Below, in pieces: positions 2,860 to 47,436 of a stretch of 64,000 nucleotides of DNA (its first letter is position 1; every line of letters begins with the position of its first letter). This DNA is from Aurantiacibacter zhengii (GTDB lineage: Bacteria; Pseudomonadota; Alphaproteobacteria; Sphingomonadales; Sphingomonadaceae). The notes under the pieces were generated by a model. The model was not told the origin of the DNA. It worked only from the letters and a program-made list of their open reading frames with translations, and did not search any database. The position numbers were made by a program, and so were the translations under genes. The stretch lies in the NCBI RefSeq assembly GCF_003584125.1, contig NZ_QXFL01000002.1:124001-188000 (forward strand), in the 5' to 3' direction.

Positions 2860-3036
2860 TCAGATACCCTCGTCATTTCCAACTAATGTGGAACACATGG
2901 AACAGTGTCCTGGGGTGGAAAATCGCCCCTCTGTCAGCCTTGTAAAGCACACCCGCAACAGCGGGAAACCTGGCGTTGATCGGGAAGGCATTGGTCATGC
3001 CAGCCATCTGCACCGCCGCACTCCAGGTAGGAAACC

Positions 3037-4200
<1,164 letters not shown>

Positions 4201-4209
4201 TTATCCACA
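4201..4209 (+). promoter_or_regulatory. Perfect DnaA box next to ccrM
   Basis: The nine bases TTATCCACA match the strongest E. coli DnaA-box form exactly. The site lies 18 bp before the chosen ccrM start and abuts its ribosome-binding site. Binding there by DnaA is inferred, not shown. Confidence 0.6.
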
Positions 4210-4216
4210 GGGGTGT

Positions 4217-4358
4217 GAGTCCTCACGAGTCCCGGGTCAAGCGGCAATTTGGTCGCACTATCAGGATCCTGAGAGAGAACGAAAAGAGTCCGTCACAAGA
4301 TGTTGAGTCCCCTGCCCTTTGCAGGACTCGATATGGTGGGGTGTGGCCAAGAGGACTC
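4217..4358. promoter_or_regulatory. Cluster of six GANTC sites between ccrM and the divergent gene
   Basis: GANTC palindromes begin at 4217, 4227, 4286, 4305, 4325 and 4354 (GAGTC four times, GACTC twice). Chance alone predicts fewer than one in this length. The intervals 10, 59, 19, 20 and 29 are all close to multiples of ten, so the sites would lie on nearly one face of the helix. The block fills the divergent promoter region of ccrM and the sulfotransferase-like gene. Methylation-state control, for example through GcrA, is inference. Confidence 0.7.
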
Positions 4359-4394
4359 ACCGGTGGCACAACGGTGCGAACAGGGGGGTTTTCT

Positions 4395-5090
4395 ATGGCA
4401 CTGGAAGTGATCGCAGCAGGGCTTGGCCGCAATGCCACGTTCTCGATGAAATTCGCACTGGAGCATCTGGGGTTCGGCCCGTGCCACCACATGAGCGAGG
4501 TTTTCGCCGATGGCCGCAGGCAGGTGCCGTTGTGGATTGCGGCGGGCCAGGGCAATCCCGACTGGGATGCAATTTTCGAGGGGTTTCGCTCCTCCAGCGA
4601 CTACCCTTCTGCGACCTACTGGCGAGAGCTGGCGGATTACTATCCCGATGCCAAGGTGGTTCTGACCACGCGCGAACCCCATAGCTGGTTCGATTCCGTC
4701 AGCGAGACGATCTTTGCTCCCAGGATGCAGGATTCGCTGAAGGGTACGCCGGTGGAAGTGATGATGAACGGGGTGATCTTCGATCATTTCGATGGGGGCG
4801 ATATCACCGACCGCGCATTCATGACCGACTGGTACGTGAAGCGGAACCAGCAGGTGGTCGACGCCCTGCCGCCTGAGCGGCTGCTGGAATTTCATCCGAA
4901 GATGGGCTGGCAACCGCTCTGCGACTTCCTGGGCGTCGACGTGCCCGATGTGCCCTTCCCCCGGGTAAACAGTCGCGATGAACTGGGTGCCGCGAGTGAC
5001 GAGATGGGCGGTATCCCCGCCGATCCGGACGCGGCGGAACGTTTCGGCAGGGAATACATCGCGCAGTTGAAGGCAAAGGCCTTCGGCTAG
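4395..5090 (+). CDS. Sulfotransferase-like P-loop protein
   Basis: 231-residue protein resembling the short bacterial sulfotransferase family that opens with a G-x-G-R-(N/T)-x-(T/S) nucleotide loop; here AAGLGRNATFSMKFAL, about residues 7-22, would bind PAPS phosphates. KVVLTTREPHSWFDSV matches the second phosphate-binding strand and helix, and LEFHPKMGWQPLCDFLG the conserved C-terminal segment. Start ATG 4395 follows a G-rich Shine-Dalgarno at 4383-4388; the frame is open back to 4215 but that part would run through the GANTC cluster. It is divergent from ccrM. The acceptor substrate cannot be deduced. Confidence 0.8.
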   Translation: MALEVIAAGLGRNATFSMKFALEHLGFGPCHHMSEVFADGRRQVPLWIAAGQGNPDWDAIFEGFRSSSDYPSATYWRELADYYPDAKVVLTTREPHSWFDSVSETIFAPRMQDSLKGTPVEVMMNGVIFDHFDGGDITDRAFMTDWYVKRNQQVVDALPPERLLEFHPKMGWQPLCDFLGVDVPDVPFPRVNSRDELGAASDEMGGIPADPDAAERFGREYIAQLKAKAFG

Positions 5091-5105
5091 GCGGAGGGGC
5101 GGGAG

Positions 5106-6011
5106 TCAGATTTCGGGATCGACGCCGGTCAGCTCGACCGACTTGTCCCACAGGCGCGCGGCCAGCTCCTCGTCTTGTGCCCGCTTGCTTTGCACGGCCC
5201 TGCCGGAGGTCTTTCCGCGCGTTTCCTTGAAACCGTAGGGGCCGTAATAGTCGCCGCCCTGCGCCGAAGGATCGGTAGCGGCCTGCAGCGCGGGCAACGC
5301 GCCCTCTTCCGAGGTGTTGAGCACCGCGCCCACGACGGACGAGAAAATCTTCCCGCCCGTCAGGTGACGGGTCAGCTCGCTCGCCGCGATGCCGGGGTGG
5401 CTGGCCAGCGCCACGCCCTTGGAACCTGCCTTGCGCAACCGGCGATCCAGTTCGTTGGCGAACAGCAGGTTGGCAAGCTTGCTCTGGCCGTAGAACTTCG
5501 TCTTTTCATAACCCTTGCTGCCGTCGAGATTGTCGAAATCGATGTCGGCGTTGCGGTGGGCAATGCTGGACTGCATCACCACGCGGCCGCCGTCGCCCTC
5601 CGCCAGCTTGTCCAGCAGCAGGGACGTGAAGGCGAAGTGGCCAAGGTGGTTCACAGCGAACTGAAGCTCGCAGCCCGCCGTGGCGGTGGAGAACGGGGGC
5701 ATCATCACGCCGGCATTGTTCACCAGCATGTCGATCCGCTCTTCCTTCCTGGCGGTTTCTGCCGCCTCGCGCACGGTGGCGAGATTGGCAAGGTCGAGGT
5801 GCAGGTATTCGGTCTCTCCGCCCTGTTCGCGACCGCCGTCGATCCGGGCGATGGCCTCTGCTGCCTTGTCGCCATCACGGCAGGCCAGCAGCACGCGGGC
5901 GCCCTTGGCAGCCAGAGCGCGTGCAATCTCGAACCCGATACCGGTGTTGGCACCGGTGACCACGGCTGTACGACCCTGCTGGATCGGAATATCGCCGAAT
6001 GTGAAACTCAT
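5106..6011 (-). CDS. Short-chain dehydrogenase/reductase
   Basis: 301-residue SDR of the retinol dehydrogenase / protochlorophyllide-reductase-like type. The nucleotide motif TGANTGIG (about 19-26), NNAGVM, catalytic Ser in VVMQSS and the YGQSK catalytic Tyr-Lys pair are all present. The ATG at 6011 overlaps the rnhB stop (TGATG), so translation is probably coupled. The frame is open upstream through rnhB to 6335, but that part has no domain content and is discarded. Substrate unknown. Confidence 0.9.
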   Translation of the reverse strand: MSFTFGDIPIQQGRTAVVTGANTGIGFEIARALAAKGARVLLACRDGDKAAEAIARIDGGREQGGETEYLHLDLANLATVREAAETARKEERIDMLVNNAGVMMPPFSTATAGCELQFAVNHLGHFAFTSLLLDKLAEGDGGRVVMQSSIAHRNADIDFDNLDGSKGYEKTKFYGQSKLANLLFANELDRRLRKAGSKGVALASHPGIAASELTRHLTGGKIFSSVVGAVLNTSEEGALPALQAATDPSAQGGDYYGPYGFKETRGKTSGRAVQSKRAQDEELAARLWDKSVELTGVDPEI

Positions 6012-6646
6012 CAGAACATCTCCATTTGCGCGACCGGCGCGAAGCTGCGGCGGTGCAGCGGCGTCGGTCCGTATGTTCGCAATGCTTCGAGATGCTCTTT
6101 CGATCCGTAACCCTTGTTCCGCTCCCACCCGTAGTGCGGGTGTTCCCGTGCAGCTTCGGCCATCAGGCGGTCGCGGTATTCCTTGGCGATGATGCTGGCA
6201 GCGCCAATGCAGGCCTCTTTCCCGTCGCCGCCCACGATGGGCCGCGCGGGCCAGCGCCATTCGGCGCAGCGACCCGCCGGGGTGAGATTGCCATCGATCA
6301 GCGCTTCCAGCCGGTCCTGCCCCAGCGCGGCGCACAGGTTCTGCATGGCAAGGCTCATCGCCAGCATGGTAGCACCGAAGATGTTGAGCCGGTCGATGCC
6401 CTCCACATCCACCACACCGATACCGAAGGCGCAGCGGCGCCGGATTGCGCGCTCGGCTTCCGCCCGCGCCCTGGCGCTCATCACCTTGGAATCGCCTACC
6501 CCCTTTGGCCTCGGTTTACAGAGCACCACCGCAGCGGCCACAACCGGCCCCGCAAGCGGTCCGCGCCCGGCCTCGTCAACACCGGCGACTAGCGGACCAG
6601 GTGCCAGTGTGGCACAAAATTCGTTCGAAGGAGTTCCCGAGAGCAT
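6011..6646 (-). CDS. rnhB: Ribonuclease HII
   Basis: Cleaves the RNA strand of RNA-DNA hybrids and starts removal of misincorporated ribonucleotides. VAGVDEAGRGPLAGPVVAAA is the family signature with the first catalytic Asp-Glu pair; IGAASIIAKEYRD and AREHPHYGWERNKGY carry the remaining conserved residues. ATG 6646 gives 211 residues, normal for the family; an alternative ATG lies at 6670. The start codon shares the palindrome CATG with the start of the divergent sugar dehydrogenase gene, so each promoter must lie inside the other coding region. Last residues overlap the SDR start. Confidence 0.95.
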   Translation of the reverse strand: MLSGTPSNEFCATLAPGPLVAGVDEAGRGPLAGPVVAAAVVLCKPRPKGVGDSKVMSARARAEAERAIRRRCAFGIGVVDVEGIDRLNIFGATMLAMSLAMQNLCAALGQDRLEALIDGNLTPAGRCAEWRWPARPIVGGDGKEACIGAASIIAKEYRDRLMAEAAREHPHYGWERNKGYGSKEHLEALRTYGPTPLHRRSFAPVAQMEMF

Positions 6647-7847
6647 GCGATACAAAATCCTGACCGCCATCATATTGCCCGCTGCCGCGCTCGCAAGCTG
6701 CAACAGCGCCGCAACCGGGGATACCGCCCCCTCACCCTCGTCTACGGAAATGCAGAGCGGGGTGCCCGTGGGCGGCGAACGGGTGGAAGTCCAGTCCCAG
6801 TCGCCGTTCGACGTCGCCAGTTACGGCGCATTCGATGAGCCTTGGGCCCTGGCCCTCGAACCGGGAACAGGCGTGATCTTCATGACCGAGAAGCCGGGCA
6901 CGATGAAGTTCTTCGATCCCGCCAGCGGTCGCATGGGCACCGTCAGCGGCATGCCCTCGGTCGCTTATGAAGGACAGGGCGGCCTGGGTTCGCTCGCCTT
7001 TGCGCCGGACTACGAAACGAATGACATGATTTACCTCTCGTGGGCCAAGCAGGACGGCGAAGGCACGAAGGCCGTGGTCGGACGCGGCACGCTGGTGTGC
7101 GAGCAGGCCGATGCCTGCTCCGTCGACGGCCTTACCGAGATCTGGGAACAGAGCCAGACCATGCCGCGCCCGGGCCACTATTCACACCGGATCGCATTCT
7201 CGCCCGATGGGCAATACCTGTTCGTCTCCAGCGGAGACCGACAGGCGCAAACACCCGCGCAGGACCTGTCGAACAACCTTGGCACCGTGGTGCGCCTGAA
7301 CCTCGACGGTACGCCCGCCGCGGGCAATCCCTTCGCCGACCGGGGCAGCCCGACGGACCAGATCTGGACCTACGGCCAGCGCAACATGCTGGGCTTGGAG
7401 TTCGATTCCTCCGGCAACCTTTGGGCGCTGGAACATGGCCCGGCAGGCGGTGACGAGCTCAACCTGGTGAAGCGCGGCAGCAACTATGGCTGGCCGGAGC
7501 GTTCGAATGGCGAAAATTACGATGGCACGCCGATTCCGGATCACTCGCCGGACGATGGCTTTGCCAAACCCGCGATTGGCTGGAACCCGGTAATCGCGCC
7601 GGGCGGCATGGTGTTCTACCAGGGCGGCATGTTTGCCGACTGGCAGGGCCAGCTCCTGATCGCCAACCTGCGCACCCAGTCGATCAGCCGGGTGACGGTA
7701 AATGCCGCCGCAAATTCCGCCGACGAGGCTGCGCGCTACGAAATGCCCGGCCGCCTGCGCGATATCGCCGTGGCGCCCGACGGTGCAATCTGGGTGATCG
7801 AGGACGGCGAAAACGGTCGCCTGCTGCGGCTCACGCCGAAAGAATAG
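6645..7847 (+). CDS. PQQ-dependent sugar dehydrogenase-like lipoprotein
   Basis: 400-residue periplasmic beta-propeller of the glucose/sorbosone (aldose sugar) dehydrogenase family, which oxidises sugars with PQQ and passes electrons to the respiratory chain. The N-terminus is a lipoprotein signal with LASC as lipobox. GGLGSLAFAPDY, HYSHRIAFSPDGQYLF, GDRQAQTPAQDLSNNLGTV, YGQRNMLGLEF and EHGPAGGDELN are characteristic propeller and active-site strands. AAGGAG at 6629-6635 serves ATG 6645. No PQQ biosynthesis genes are in the window, so cofactor supply is unknown. Confidence 0.88.
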   Translation: MRYKILTAIILPAAALASCNSAATGDTAPSPSSTEMQSGVPVGGERVEVQSQSPFDVASYGAFDEPWALALEPGTGVIFMTEKPGTMKFFDPASGRMGTVSGMPSVAYEGQGGLGSLAFAPDYETNDMIYLSWAKQDGEGTKAVVGRGTLVCEQADACSVDGLTEIWEQSQTMPRPGHYSHRIAFSPDGQYLFVSSGDRQAQTPAQDLSNNLGTVVRLNLDGTPAAGNPFADRGSPTDQIWTYGQRNMLGLEFDSSGNLWALEHGPAGGDELNLVKRGSNYGWPERSNGENYDGTPIPDHSPDDGFAKPAIGWNPVIAPGGMVFYQGGMFADWQGQLLIANLRTQSISRVTVNAAANSADEAARYEMPGRLRDIAVAPDGAIWVIEDGENGRLLRLTPKE

Positions 7848-45195: not shown

Positions 45196-47361
45196 CTACT
45201 GCTGCCCCGCTTCTTCCACCCGCCGCTCCACCTCGCGACGCGCGGCTTCCTCGTCCAGTTCGAACGAGAAGGCCCCGTCGCGCACGCGCACTTCCAGCGG
45301 CACGCCTTCGATATCGGTCGATAGCACCGCCTCTTCATCGTTGATGATAAGGCGGCGGTTATCGCCCAGCGGGATATCCTGCAGCTCGGGCACGTCCTGC
45401 GGCTGCACCGGGCCGCTGGGATCGGGTGATGGCGTGGCACGCGGCGGAGCGGCGCTGGCACCCAGCGCGGCGCGCATGAAATCGCGCCAGATACGCGCGG
45501 GCAGTCCGCCGCCGTAGACGTTGCCCAGCGGCGAGTTGTCGTCGTTGCCGATCCACACGCCCACCACCAGGCGGTTCTCCCCCTCGCCTGCATAGCCCAC
45601 GAACAGCGCGTCGCGGTTGTCCTGCGTGGTGCCGGTCTTGCCGTAGTTGGCAATGGAAAGCGTCGCCGCGCGCCCGGTGCCCGCATTGATCGCGGTGCGC
45701 AGCATGTCCTCGATGGCCTCGTGATCGCTCGATCCAAGATTGCCTTGCCCATCCAGTATCCAGTCGAACCAGCCCCCTTCCTCGGCAGCAAAGGCATGGG
45801 GATCGACGGGAAAGCTGTTGGCGGCCACACCGGCATAGGCGGCGGTCAGTTCCAGCAGGCTCATGGTGGAAGTTCCCAGCGCCATGCTGGGATCGCCTTC
45901 GGGCAGCGGGGAGGAAACGCCCAGCTCGCGCGCAGTCTCGATCACCGCTTCGCTGCCCACTTCGTTGAAAAGCCGCACGGCGGCGACATTCGACGACTGG
46001 GCGAAGGCCTCGCGCAGCGTCAGGCTCTCGGAATAGCGGCCGTTGGAATTGCTCGGCTGGTAACTGCCCTCGGTGAACTCAGCGTTGGAAATCCGGTCAT
46101 CCGGGTTCCAGCCGTTGCGCAGTGCGGCCAGATAGACGAACAGCTTGAAGGTGGAGCCGGGCTGTCGGCGCGCCTGCGTGGCGCGGTTGAACGGGCTTTC
46201 GGAATAGTCCTTGCCGCCCACCATCGCAACGACCTCTCCGTTGGGCCGCATCGCCACCAGTGCCACCTGCGCCCCGCCCAGCGGCGCACGCTGGATCACG
46301 CGGTTGGCAGCGGCCTGCAGGTTGCTGTCGAGCGTCGTGGTGATGGTCTGGCGCGAGTAGTTCATCTCGCTCTGCTCGCGCGCGGCGGGCAGCGCCCAGT
46401 CCGCGAAATATGTGCCGGTGGGCACGTCGTTGCGGGTGCGCACGTCCAGTTCGGGCACGCGCATCGCATCGGCCTGGCCTTGCGTGATGTATCCGGCGGC
46501 GACCATGGCATTCTTCACCAGCGCGTATCGCTGCGCGGCAAGATCCGGATTGCGCGTGGGGGCAAGCCTGCTGGGTGCCTGCAACAGCCCGGCCAGCATG
46601 GCGGCCTGTTCGGGGCGCAGGTTTTCCGGCTGGCGGTAGAAATAGTGCAGCGACGCGGCCCGCAAACCGTACATGTTGTCGCCGAAATAGGCGTTGGAAA
46701 GATATCGCTCGAGGATCTCGTCCTTGGTCAGCCAGCTTTCCAGCCACAGCGCAATCAGGGCCTCGCGCGCCTTGCGGGTCAGCGTCTGCTCAGGGGTCAG
46801 GAAAGTGAACTTCGCCAGCTGCTGGGTTATGGTGGAGCCGCCGCCCACGCCCATGAACAGCGCCCGGCCCACCCCGCGCGGATCGATGCCCCAGTGATCG
46901 TAGAAGCGCCGGTCCTCGATGGCGAGGAAGGGCTGCACCACGTGTTCGGGCAATTCAGACACCTGTACCGGCTCGTCCACCATGGCACCGTTGCGCGCAA
47001 TGGGCGTGCCATCAGCGGCCAGCAGGGTGATCTGCGGCGGCGCGATCGGCTCCAGGCTTTTCGATAGCGGCGCGGTGATGGCCAGCCAGGCCACAAGCAA
47101 GATAAAAACGGCGATGATCGCGGCGAAAATCCGGCTGGCCCACCAGAGCTTTCCCCGGCCCCGCGCGCGTTCGGGCAGGAATCGTCGCCACCCCTCGCGA
47201 TAGCGTTCGCGGTCATAGTGGCGGGGCGGCGCAGCCTGCGGGCCGAAGTCGTCGTCGTCCAGCCCGTGCAGCGGAGTCCAGGGGGCGGACTCCAGCGCTA
47301 GATCACGCTCGGTCCAGCGATCCTGCTCCGGCTCTGGCCGCTTGAAGGGGTTGCGCCACAT
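45196..47361 (-). CDS. Penicillin-binding protein 1A-type, bifunctional
   Basis: About 721 residues. A cytosolic basic/acidic head, a TM helix (IFAAIIAVFILLVAWLAI), glycosyltransferase family 51 (EDRRFYDHWGIDP with catalytic Glu; GGGSTITQQLAK), and transpeptidase (RQPGSTFKLF = SxxK, SSNVAAVR = SxN, YGKTGTTQD = KTG). Builds and crosslinks peptidoglycan. Pro-rich tail before the end. ATG 47361 preferred to GTG 47370; neither has a good Shine-Dalgarno. Confidence 0.93.
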   Translation of the reverse strand: MWRNPFKRPEPEQDRWTERDLALESAPWTPLHGLDDDDFGPQAAPPRHYDRERYREGWRRFLPERARGRGKLWWASRIFAAIIAVFILLVAWLAITAPLSKSLEPIAPPQITLLAADGTPIARNGAMVDEPVQVSELPEHVVQPFLAIEDRRFYDHWGIDPRGVGRALFMGVGGGSTITQQLAKFTFLTPEQTLTRKAREALIALWLESWLTKDEILERYLSNAYFGDNMYGLRAASLHYFYRQPENLRPEQAAMLAGLLQAPSRLAPTRNPDLAAQRYALVKNAMVAAGYITQGQADAMRVPELDVRTRNDVPTGTYFADWALPAAREQSEMNYSRQTITTTLDSNLQAAANRVIQRAPLGGAQVALVAMRPNGEVVAMVGGKDYSESPFNRATQARRQPGSTFKLFVYLAALRNGWNPDDRISNAEFTEGSYQPSNSNGRYSESLTLREAFAQSSNVAAVRLFNEVGSEAVIETARELGVSSPLPEGDPSMALGTSTMSLLELTAAYAGVAANSFPVDPHAFAAEEGGWFDWILDGQGNLGSSDHEAIEDMLRTAINAGTGRAATLSIANYGKTGTTQDNRDALFVGYAGEGENRLVVGVWIGNDDNSPLGNVYGGGLPARIWRDFMRAALGASAAPPRATPSPDPSGPVQPQDVPELQDIPLGDNRRLIINDEEAVLSTDIEGVPLEVRVRDGAFSFELDEEAARREVERRVEEAGQQ

Positions 47362-47436
47362 GCGAGTCACATCAGTGTGTTAGCAAAACAACACACGCAA
47401 TACGAGGGTGGAGATGAAACTGCGATGAAACCAGCC

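Follow-up and report, generated by a model that had tools for sequence, protein, structure and literature searches.

A conserved, phase-locked GANTC operator upstream of ccrM in Sphingomonadaceae and its candidate readers

Why should the gene for a GANTC methyltransferase be preceded by a dense run of the sites that its own product methylates, and what would read them? The question arises in Aurantiacibacter zhengii, from which we analysed a stretch of 64,000 nucleotides, called the window throughout. On its minus strand the window carries ccrM (3037..4182), encoding a GANTC adenine methyltransferase of 381 amino acids with a conserved ATG at 4182 and a GTG, also in frame, at 4200; the product matches the NCBIfam CcrM model NF050803 with an E-value of 9.8e-187 and 620 bits, under the curated cut-off of 830. 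An initial annotation of the sequence had placed six GANTC sites upstream of this gene, starting at 4217, 4227, 4286, 4305, 4325 and 4354, and all six are found at these positions, each reading GAGTCC on one strand. That the array lies upstream of ccrM is likewise correct; it also stands between minus-strand ccrM and a divergent sulfotransferase-like frame with its ATG at 4395.

Such a cluster is far from what the local density of the motif predicts. GANTC is avoided in the window (69 occurrences in 64,000 bases versus 261, sd 15, from dinucleotide shuffles), and the claim that fewer than one site would be expected in these 142 bp holds: at the window's own density the expectation is 0.15, and the Poisson probability of six or more is 1.6e-8 per place. 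Similar clusters elsewhere, whose absence the initial annotation had counted on, were not found: no place with at least four GANTC in 142 bp occurs in 511,642 bp flanking the ccrM loci described below, and in 464,000 bases of the genome (the window and 20 sampled stretches, or some 12% of 3.8 Mb) no place outside the array has at least five and a single one, within an open reading frame, has four. Pairs of GAGTCC in the same orientation with 0-30 bp between them match three times in the whole 3.8-Mb genome, all three in the array. Elsewhere in the window, at 47179-47368, four GANTC are packed into 190 bp of the 5′ part of a frame on the minus strand; by eye, this frame resembles a penicillin-binding protein.

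The array is also shared by relatives. From 591 confirmed Sphingomonadales stretches we took the best 80, which makes this a close-relative sample, with CcrM at 67-95% identity. All 80 ccrM orthologues keep a GANTC cluster, mostly in the same register: 3-10 sites lie within 300 bp upstream of where the match begins (two loci offer less sequence), whereas 0.25-1.12 would be expected from each locus's own density. Aligning the 81 upstream regions (the relatives plus the window) with MAFFT allowed us to place six sites, A to F, which are in register in 73 (A, the outermost, 4354..4358), 67 (B, 4325..4329), 70 (C, 4305..4309), 44 (D, 4286..4290), 72 (E, 4227..4231) and 68 (F, 4217..4221) loci; D is absent or shifted in the other 37. 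Six of the window's sites are present in 24 loci, five in 36, four in 9, three in 10 and two in 2. Chance or base composition, in favour of which we found nothing, is refuted by the GANTC density, shuffles, relatives, flanks and genome sample alike (six sites against 0.15 expected, a cluster kept in 80 of 80 relatives), and we regard its probability as negligible. The family's A-D sites are nearly always GAGTC/GACTC, with G or C as the middle base in 249 of 254 compared with 158 of 630 flanking GANTC; a reader other than CcrM is therefore likely, and at these four sites something beyond methylation seems to be read.

Closest to the gene lies a well-ordered arrangement that looks like the promoter itself. 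A TTGAC on the minus strand (4236..4240), the presumed -35 of ccrM, is at most 4 bases from its aligned column in all 81 loci. Site E falls in the spacer between -35 and -10, at 6-10 bp from TTGAC in 72/72 loci, and site F on the -10 side, 10-11 bp from E in 59/62 loci and 19 bp from TTGAC in 67/68; in the ccrM core promoter no -10 hexamer is clearly recognisable. The outgroup consists of 27 ccrM loci belonging to other families of alphaproteobacteria: TTGAC plus a GANTC at the F position is present in 17, both E and F in 14, and neither arrangement in 10. The core promoter, as read from these alignments, is a TTGAC -35 with two GANTC in its spacer, common to about half of the outgroup loci; this sharing suggests that the E/F pair is an ancient trait of ccrM promoters. 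The Caulobacter ccrM leader reportedly carries GANTC, of which the E/F pair may be the counterpart. The array treated by the initial annotation as one unit is, on the aligned loci, separable into two layers: this core pair and a lineage-specific upstream block containing A-D.

The upstream block (4267..4364, minus strand) was delimited in alignment A1, which holds 71 of the 81 loci (ten were dropped: three had fewer than two block sites placed, six lacked site A and one was cut by a contig end); a second alignment, A2, holds 33 loci picked by hand. Its 98 bp have 12 invariant columns in A1, five of which are site A and owe their invariance partly to the choice of rows. Besides A-D, the block contains the motifs GNCACACC and TTTCGTTC (window 4340-4347 and 4277-4284), which are conserved beyond the GANTC sites and beyond the boxes described next. 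Sites B and C form the inner edges of an inverted pair of 16-bp boxes, roughly CACNAGATRTTGAGTC and GACTCAAYATCTTGTG, with fixed flanks CACNAGATRTT / AAYATCTTGTG. We scored this pair against ACACWATATWTWGTGT, which we take to be the NrdR-box consensus and which holds no GANTC. In the window the proximal box, ACTCAACATCTTGTGA on the ccrM strand (4293..4308, minus), has C on its edge and D beside it and matches at 12 of 16 positions; the distal box, CCCCACCATATCGAGT on the ccrM strand (4326..4341, minus), has B on its edge and matches at just 10 of 16, a point against NrdR as reader; the spacer is 17 bp and the pair score 12+10.

Across the family the likeness is much stronger than controls allow. 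With a 15-17 bp spacer and out of a maximum of 32, the best pair score against the assumed consensus averages 21.3 in 80 family ccrM regions, versus 15.0 (sd 1.4) in 1204 control segments from the same loci and 16.4 in shuffles; a score of at least 20 is reached by 70/80 family regions versus 0/1204 controls and 11/800 shuffles. For outgroup ccrM the corresponding figures are 11/27 regions versus 2/162 controls and 5/270 shuffles, and no pair reaches 20 in the other 16 of 27, although nrdR was found in all 27 of these genomes. When the consensus was replaced by 600 permuted palindromic ones, it was beaten once for family ccrM and never for outgroup ccrM or family nrdA; the sole winner, ACTCAAWA, is the NrdR box with GANTC written in. 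Over spacers of 8-30 bp, the family ccrM profile peaks at 17 (20.5) and 15 (19.9), with 16 lower (17.7). In the accessible part of a study of four NrdRs, binding is best with boxes 15-17 bp apart, and some accept 14-18 or one more turn (PMC12051234); boxes 31-32 bp apart are given in the part of another report available to us (PMC2892513). In other families NrdR-like boxes without GANTC precede ccrM, for example at L100 and L108; boxes alone reach further than the full block. Judged by its letters, the pair at ccrM fits the NrdR-box consensus, and of the readers considered here NrdR is the best supported: we think it probable that NrdR reads this operator.

Inverted repeats can also be the mark of a structured RNA. 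In a leader hairpin, attenuator or small RNA, GAGTC would pair with GACTC, joining B to C and A to D, and the repeats are indeed strong: 74.5% of cells pair, versus 30-42% when the partners are slid. RNAalifold, however, predicts no pair on 71 sequences, covariation (0.098) equals that of shuffled columns (0.098), compensatory stem changes were not found, Rfam has no match in 3000-6800 at E up to 5, and the conserved -35 lies between the block and the gene. We rejected an RNA hairpin or leader on these grounds and consider any RNA reading very improbable.

Searches with models of the block indicate where else it occurs. In the genome's own sequence, the block model R1, with E-values up to 10 admitted and 150 of 373 candidates scored, matches no place on either strand but that at ccrM, which it matches on both; a regulon of the whole A-D block is rejected on this result, and at the sensitivity of the model searches the putative operator is single-copy in the genome. 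Over 118 genomes of the order, R1 matched 58 under strict filters, only 2 of them outside the window's family; the complete block thus characterises a single family and its nearest relatives, although at least one family member (G251) gave no R1 match. Eight weaker R1 places in relatives comprise two ccrM regions (L217, L220), five places in or beside other genes, and L218, which by eye resembles a tRNA gene; none of the eight has a tblastn match to the ribonucleotide reductase (RNR) queries. The same searches bear on whether the array might serve the divergent sulfotransferase-like gene instead of ccrM, or be an intergenic repeat of a general kind. Its position between two divergent genes in the window would suit that reading, but ccrM adjoins all 29 fetched R1 best matches of other genomes, a sulfotransferase-like homologue lies on the strand opposite ccrM in only 11 of 80 loci, and rnhB, on the ccrM strand, ends at most 1500 bp upstream in 57 of 80; we give it hardly any weight. 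In the window itself, 4395-6703 holds the divergent frame and a dehydrogenase-like frame between ccrM and rnhB.

The spacing of the GANTC sites raises a more serious alternative to NrdR. The initial annotation had proposed that the six sites are helically phased, and phased they are, with a best period of 9.8 bp (R = 0.99), but not at 10.5 bp, the usual repeat (R = 0.27). Within loci, A-D keep a period of 9.7-9.8 bp (over the 29 loci that have all four sites, R is 0.97, and 0.42 at 10.5 bp), as do A-F (R 0.93 in the 60 loci with five or six sites; 0.41 at 10.5 bp). A further 98 internal GANTC in 47 loci, which are related and not independent, give R 0.56 at 10.0 bp, 0.50 at 9.8 and 0.23 at 10.5, and tend towards a comparable ladder, near 10 bp. 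Four loci (L044, L049, L052, L074) have ten GANTC per 300 bp upstream of ccrM, and their extra sites lean the same way. Such a ladder is what one would look for if a GANTC-binding protein alone, either GcrA on methylated sites or CcrM as autorepressor, bound cooperatively along one face of the DNA and the likeness to NrdR boxes were incidental; including its extra sites, the 9.8-bp ladder goes beyond what NrdR alone explains.

For GcrA in particular there are several points. GcrA-dependent promoters have GANTC between -35 and -10, which is where E and F lie in the window and in the family, and GcrA is present in 60/60 genomes of the order. As far as the consulted part of one study goes, several GcrA-bound Caulobacter promoters are crippled by GANTC mutation, GcrA and GANTC both being required for promoter activity (PMC3667746). 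Nonetheless, GcrA as the single reader is not supported by the sequence preference YGAKTCK given in the portion of PMC7987155 that was available: none of the six window sites fits it, and neither do most of the family's (90/394 placed A-F sites fit, 15/184 at D, E and F, and at the core 8/68 for F and 4/72 for E). Nor would a GANTC-binder alone account for the fixed letters flanking the box pair and their match to nrdA boxes, or for the GANTC-free boxes ahead of ccrM in other families. We therefore regard it as unlikely that a GANTC-binder is the whole answer, while GcrA at E/F is possible and methylation feedback on ccrM plausible. MucR and hypomethylation come up together in the part of PMC5172544 that we could consult.

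NrdR, the reading that we prefer, would have to act from the block on a promoter some distance away, and that distance is constrained. From C, whose position was inferred from other block sites in 11 loci, to TTGAC it is 69 bp in 5 loci, 77-82 in 62, 89-91 in 13 and 96 in 1, with no distances of 70-76 or 83-88 bp in 81 loci; in other words, 80 of 81 loci fall near 69, 79 or 90 bp. A maximum-likelihood tree built from the 81 CcrM proteins requires 13 changes between these classes, and even if only well-supported branches are counted, the 79-bp class requires 7. One-turn insertions or losses must then have been fixed repeatedly and intermediate lengths hardly ever, and helical phase therefore seems to be selected. 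The array period of 9.8 bp and the spacer steps of 10-11 bp are two figures that disagree. Of all the evidence, the phasing of block and core argues most strongly for a protein contact on the DNA that ties the one to the other. As far as alignment can tell, the comparison as a whole shows a conserved, phase-locked, methylation-studded operator of ccrM.

If NrdR reads ccrM, its boxes there should resemble those at the RNR genes. In the family, nrdA loci reach a pair score of at least 20 in 23 of 29 cases, versus 2 of 87 coding segments of equal length, and these loci bear out the consensus that we had assumed; of the 23 pairs, 20 precede the first conceivable start, and the remaining 3 run into a frame that could in fact start further downstream. 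The nrdA of the window's own genome has a weak pair (score 19, an 18-bp spacer and a diverged centre), so its NrdR may read a shifted sequence. A matrix built from the ccrM boxes alone picks six of 57 RNR loci at 12.8 or more (L170, L152, L173, L174, L202 and L157, scoring 12.8 to 26.4, with the next best at 8.4); the six belong to five families, and their pairs are spaced 15-16 bp apart and all lie ahead of the first possible start codon. At class level, most of the 30 RNR loci fetched resemble another RNR-like paralogue, and few have pairs. Among the 23 nrdA loci with good pairs, 8 have GATTC on the edge of the distal box, in the register of ccrM site C in six (L223, L227, L229, L235, L244, L246) and shifted by 2 in L156 and L238.

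Model R2, built from B-C alone, matched 54 of 116 genomes and had no match at the RNR genes in 12 genomes with known RNR places; since its letters are heavy in GANTC, this miss counts against a simple shared operator without being decisive. The nrdR gene itself was found in 116/116 genomes of the order (115 above the cut-off; E 2.6e-46 in G000) and in 27/27 outgroup genomes (26 above the cut-off), and it is so nearly universal that co-occurrence cannot test a link between NrdR and ccrM. We can only tentatively extend the argument to a single sphingomonad regulon of CcrM and ribonucleotide reductase, in which NrdR would directly control ccrM and GANTC in the box edges, at ccrM and some nrdA, would make NrdR binding methylation-dependent.

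A second candidate regulator is suggested nearer the gene. About the presumed transcription start, at 4201..4209 on the plus strand, lies an exact copy of TTATCCACA, presumably the DnaA-box consensus. It occurs exactly in 53 of 81 ccrM upstream regions (62 with one mismatch) versus once in 511,722 bp of flanks, and of the 55 exact matches 42 are at most 60 bp from the start codon and 11 lie over 90 bp upstream, with 2 at intermediate distances. In eight Sphingomonas-type loci among the 71 aligned (L059, L068, L069, L070, L072, L073, L077, L078) the DnaA box lies inside the block, and site B is absent from all of these but L072; the distal NrdR-like box is therefore not universal. In Caulobacter it is CtrA that drives ccrM. 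The sequence TTAA-N7-TTAA, which we take to be the CtrA site, is found exactly in 0 of 81 family ccrM regions, and with one mismatch in 21, not including the window. The consulted part of a 2010 survey predicts that DnaA controls ccrM chiefly in the absence of CtrA sites, and it counts GANTC upstream of cell-cycle genes, so that the ccrM cluster may be implicit in its figures (PMC2877005).

Taken together, these observations favour, on balance, a composite, phase-locked and methylation-sensitive promoter-operator through which NrdR (reporting the dNTP state), DnaA and GANTC methylation would jointly set ccrM expression. NrdR loaded with ATP/dATP would sit on the box pair and, on the right helix face, contact RNA polymerase at the core promoter, making ccrM transcription fall (or rise) in response to the dNTP pool; DnaA, bound at the start, would couple the promoter to initiation; and CcrM methylation of the box edges and of E/F would modulate the protein contacts there, such that passage of the fork (hemimethylation) and then completed methylation might move the promoter from one state to another. 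The gating of NrdR by methylation is the bolder part of this scheme, and we hold it with some reserve. The upstream position is unusual for a repressor. Activation by NrdR has a precedent at topA of P. aeruginosa, according to the part of PMC4409342 at hand. Among the matches listed in literature searches for NrdR with ccrM, Caulobacter, GANTC and GcrA, none suggests, in its title or the opening of its abstract, that NrdR controls ccrM; ccrM is absent from the main text, as far as available, of a study of the NrdR regulon in Proteobacteria (PMC5343134), and the consulted part of PMC3973325 has nothing relevant on the ccrM promoter or its autoregulation.

The arrangement borrows features of several known systems. 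Like the NrdR operators of RNR genes, it has two 16-bp imperfect palindromes with AT-rich centres and CAC/GTG edges, a spacer of 15-17 bp and about three helical turns between centres, in an order in which every genome searched has nrdR; unlike them, it stands before the gene of a DNA methyltransferase, has GANTC at the inner edge of both boxes and further GANTC to either side, and places its block upstream of the -35. With the ccrM promoters of Caulobacter and other alphaproteobacteria it shares GANTC in the promoter of the gene whose product methylates them, but the family lacks the exact sequence taken as the CtrA site and has four further GANTC upstream. Promoters controlled by GcrA and CcrM have the same placement of GANTC within the core, whereas here the six window sites depart from the GcrA preference and extra letters beyond GANTC are conserved. 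The S. Typhimurium nrdAB promoter, from the part of PMC2892513 available to us, resembles ccrM here in combining an NrdR box pair with a DnaA box, but belongs to another gene, and here GANTC is built into the boxes.

For the timing of ccrM outside Caulobacter, the sequence points to NrdR, DnaA and the enzyme's own marks as inputs. The natural series of 69, 79 and 90 bp is a ready-made helical-phasing experiment, and, if NrdR binds, the GANTC-edged boxes of ccrM and nrdA offer a simple test of methylation gating a repressor. NrdR binding would also mean that the dNTP pool is wired to epigenetic marking, and, if the scheme is true, a methylation-gated dNTP checkpoint would time both the supply of building blocks and the marking of DNA to the replication fork.
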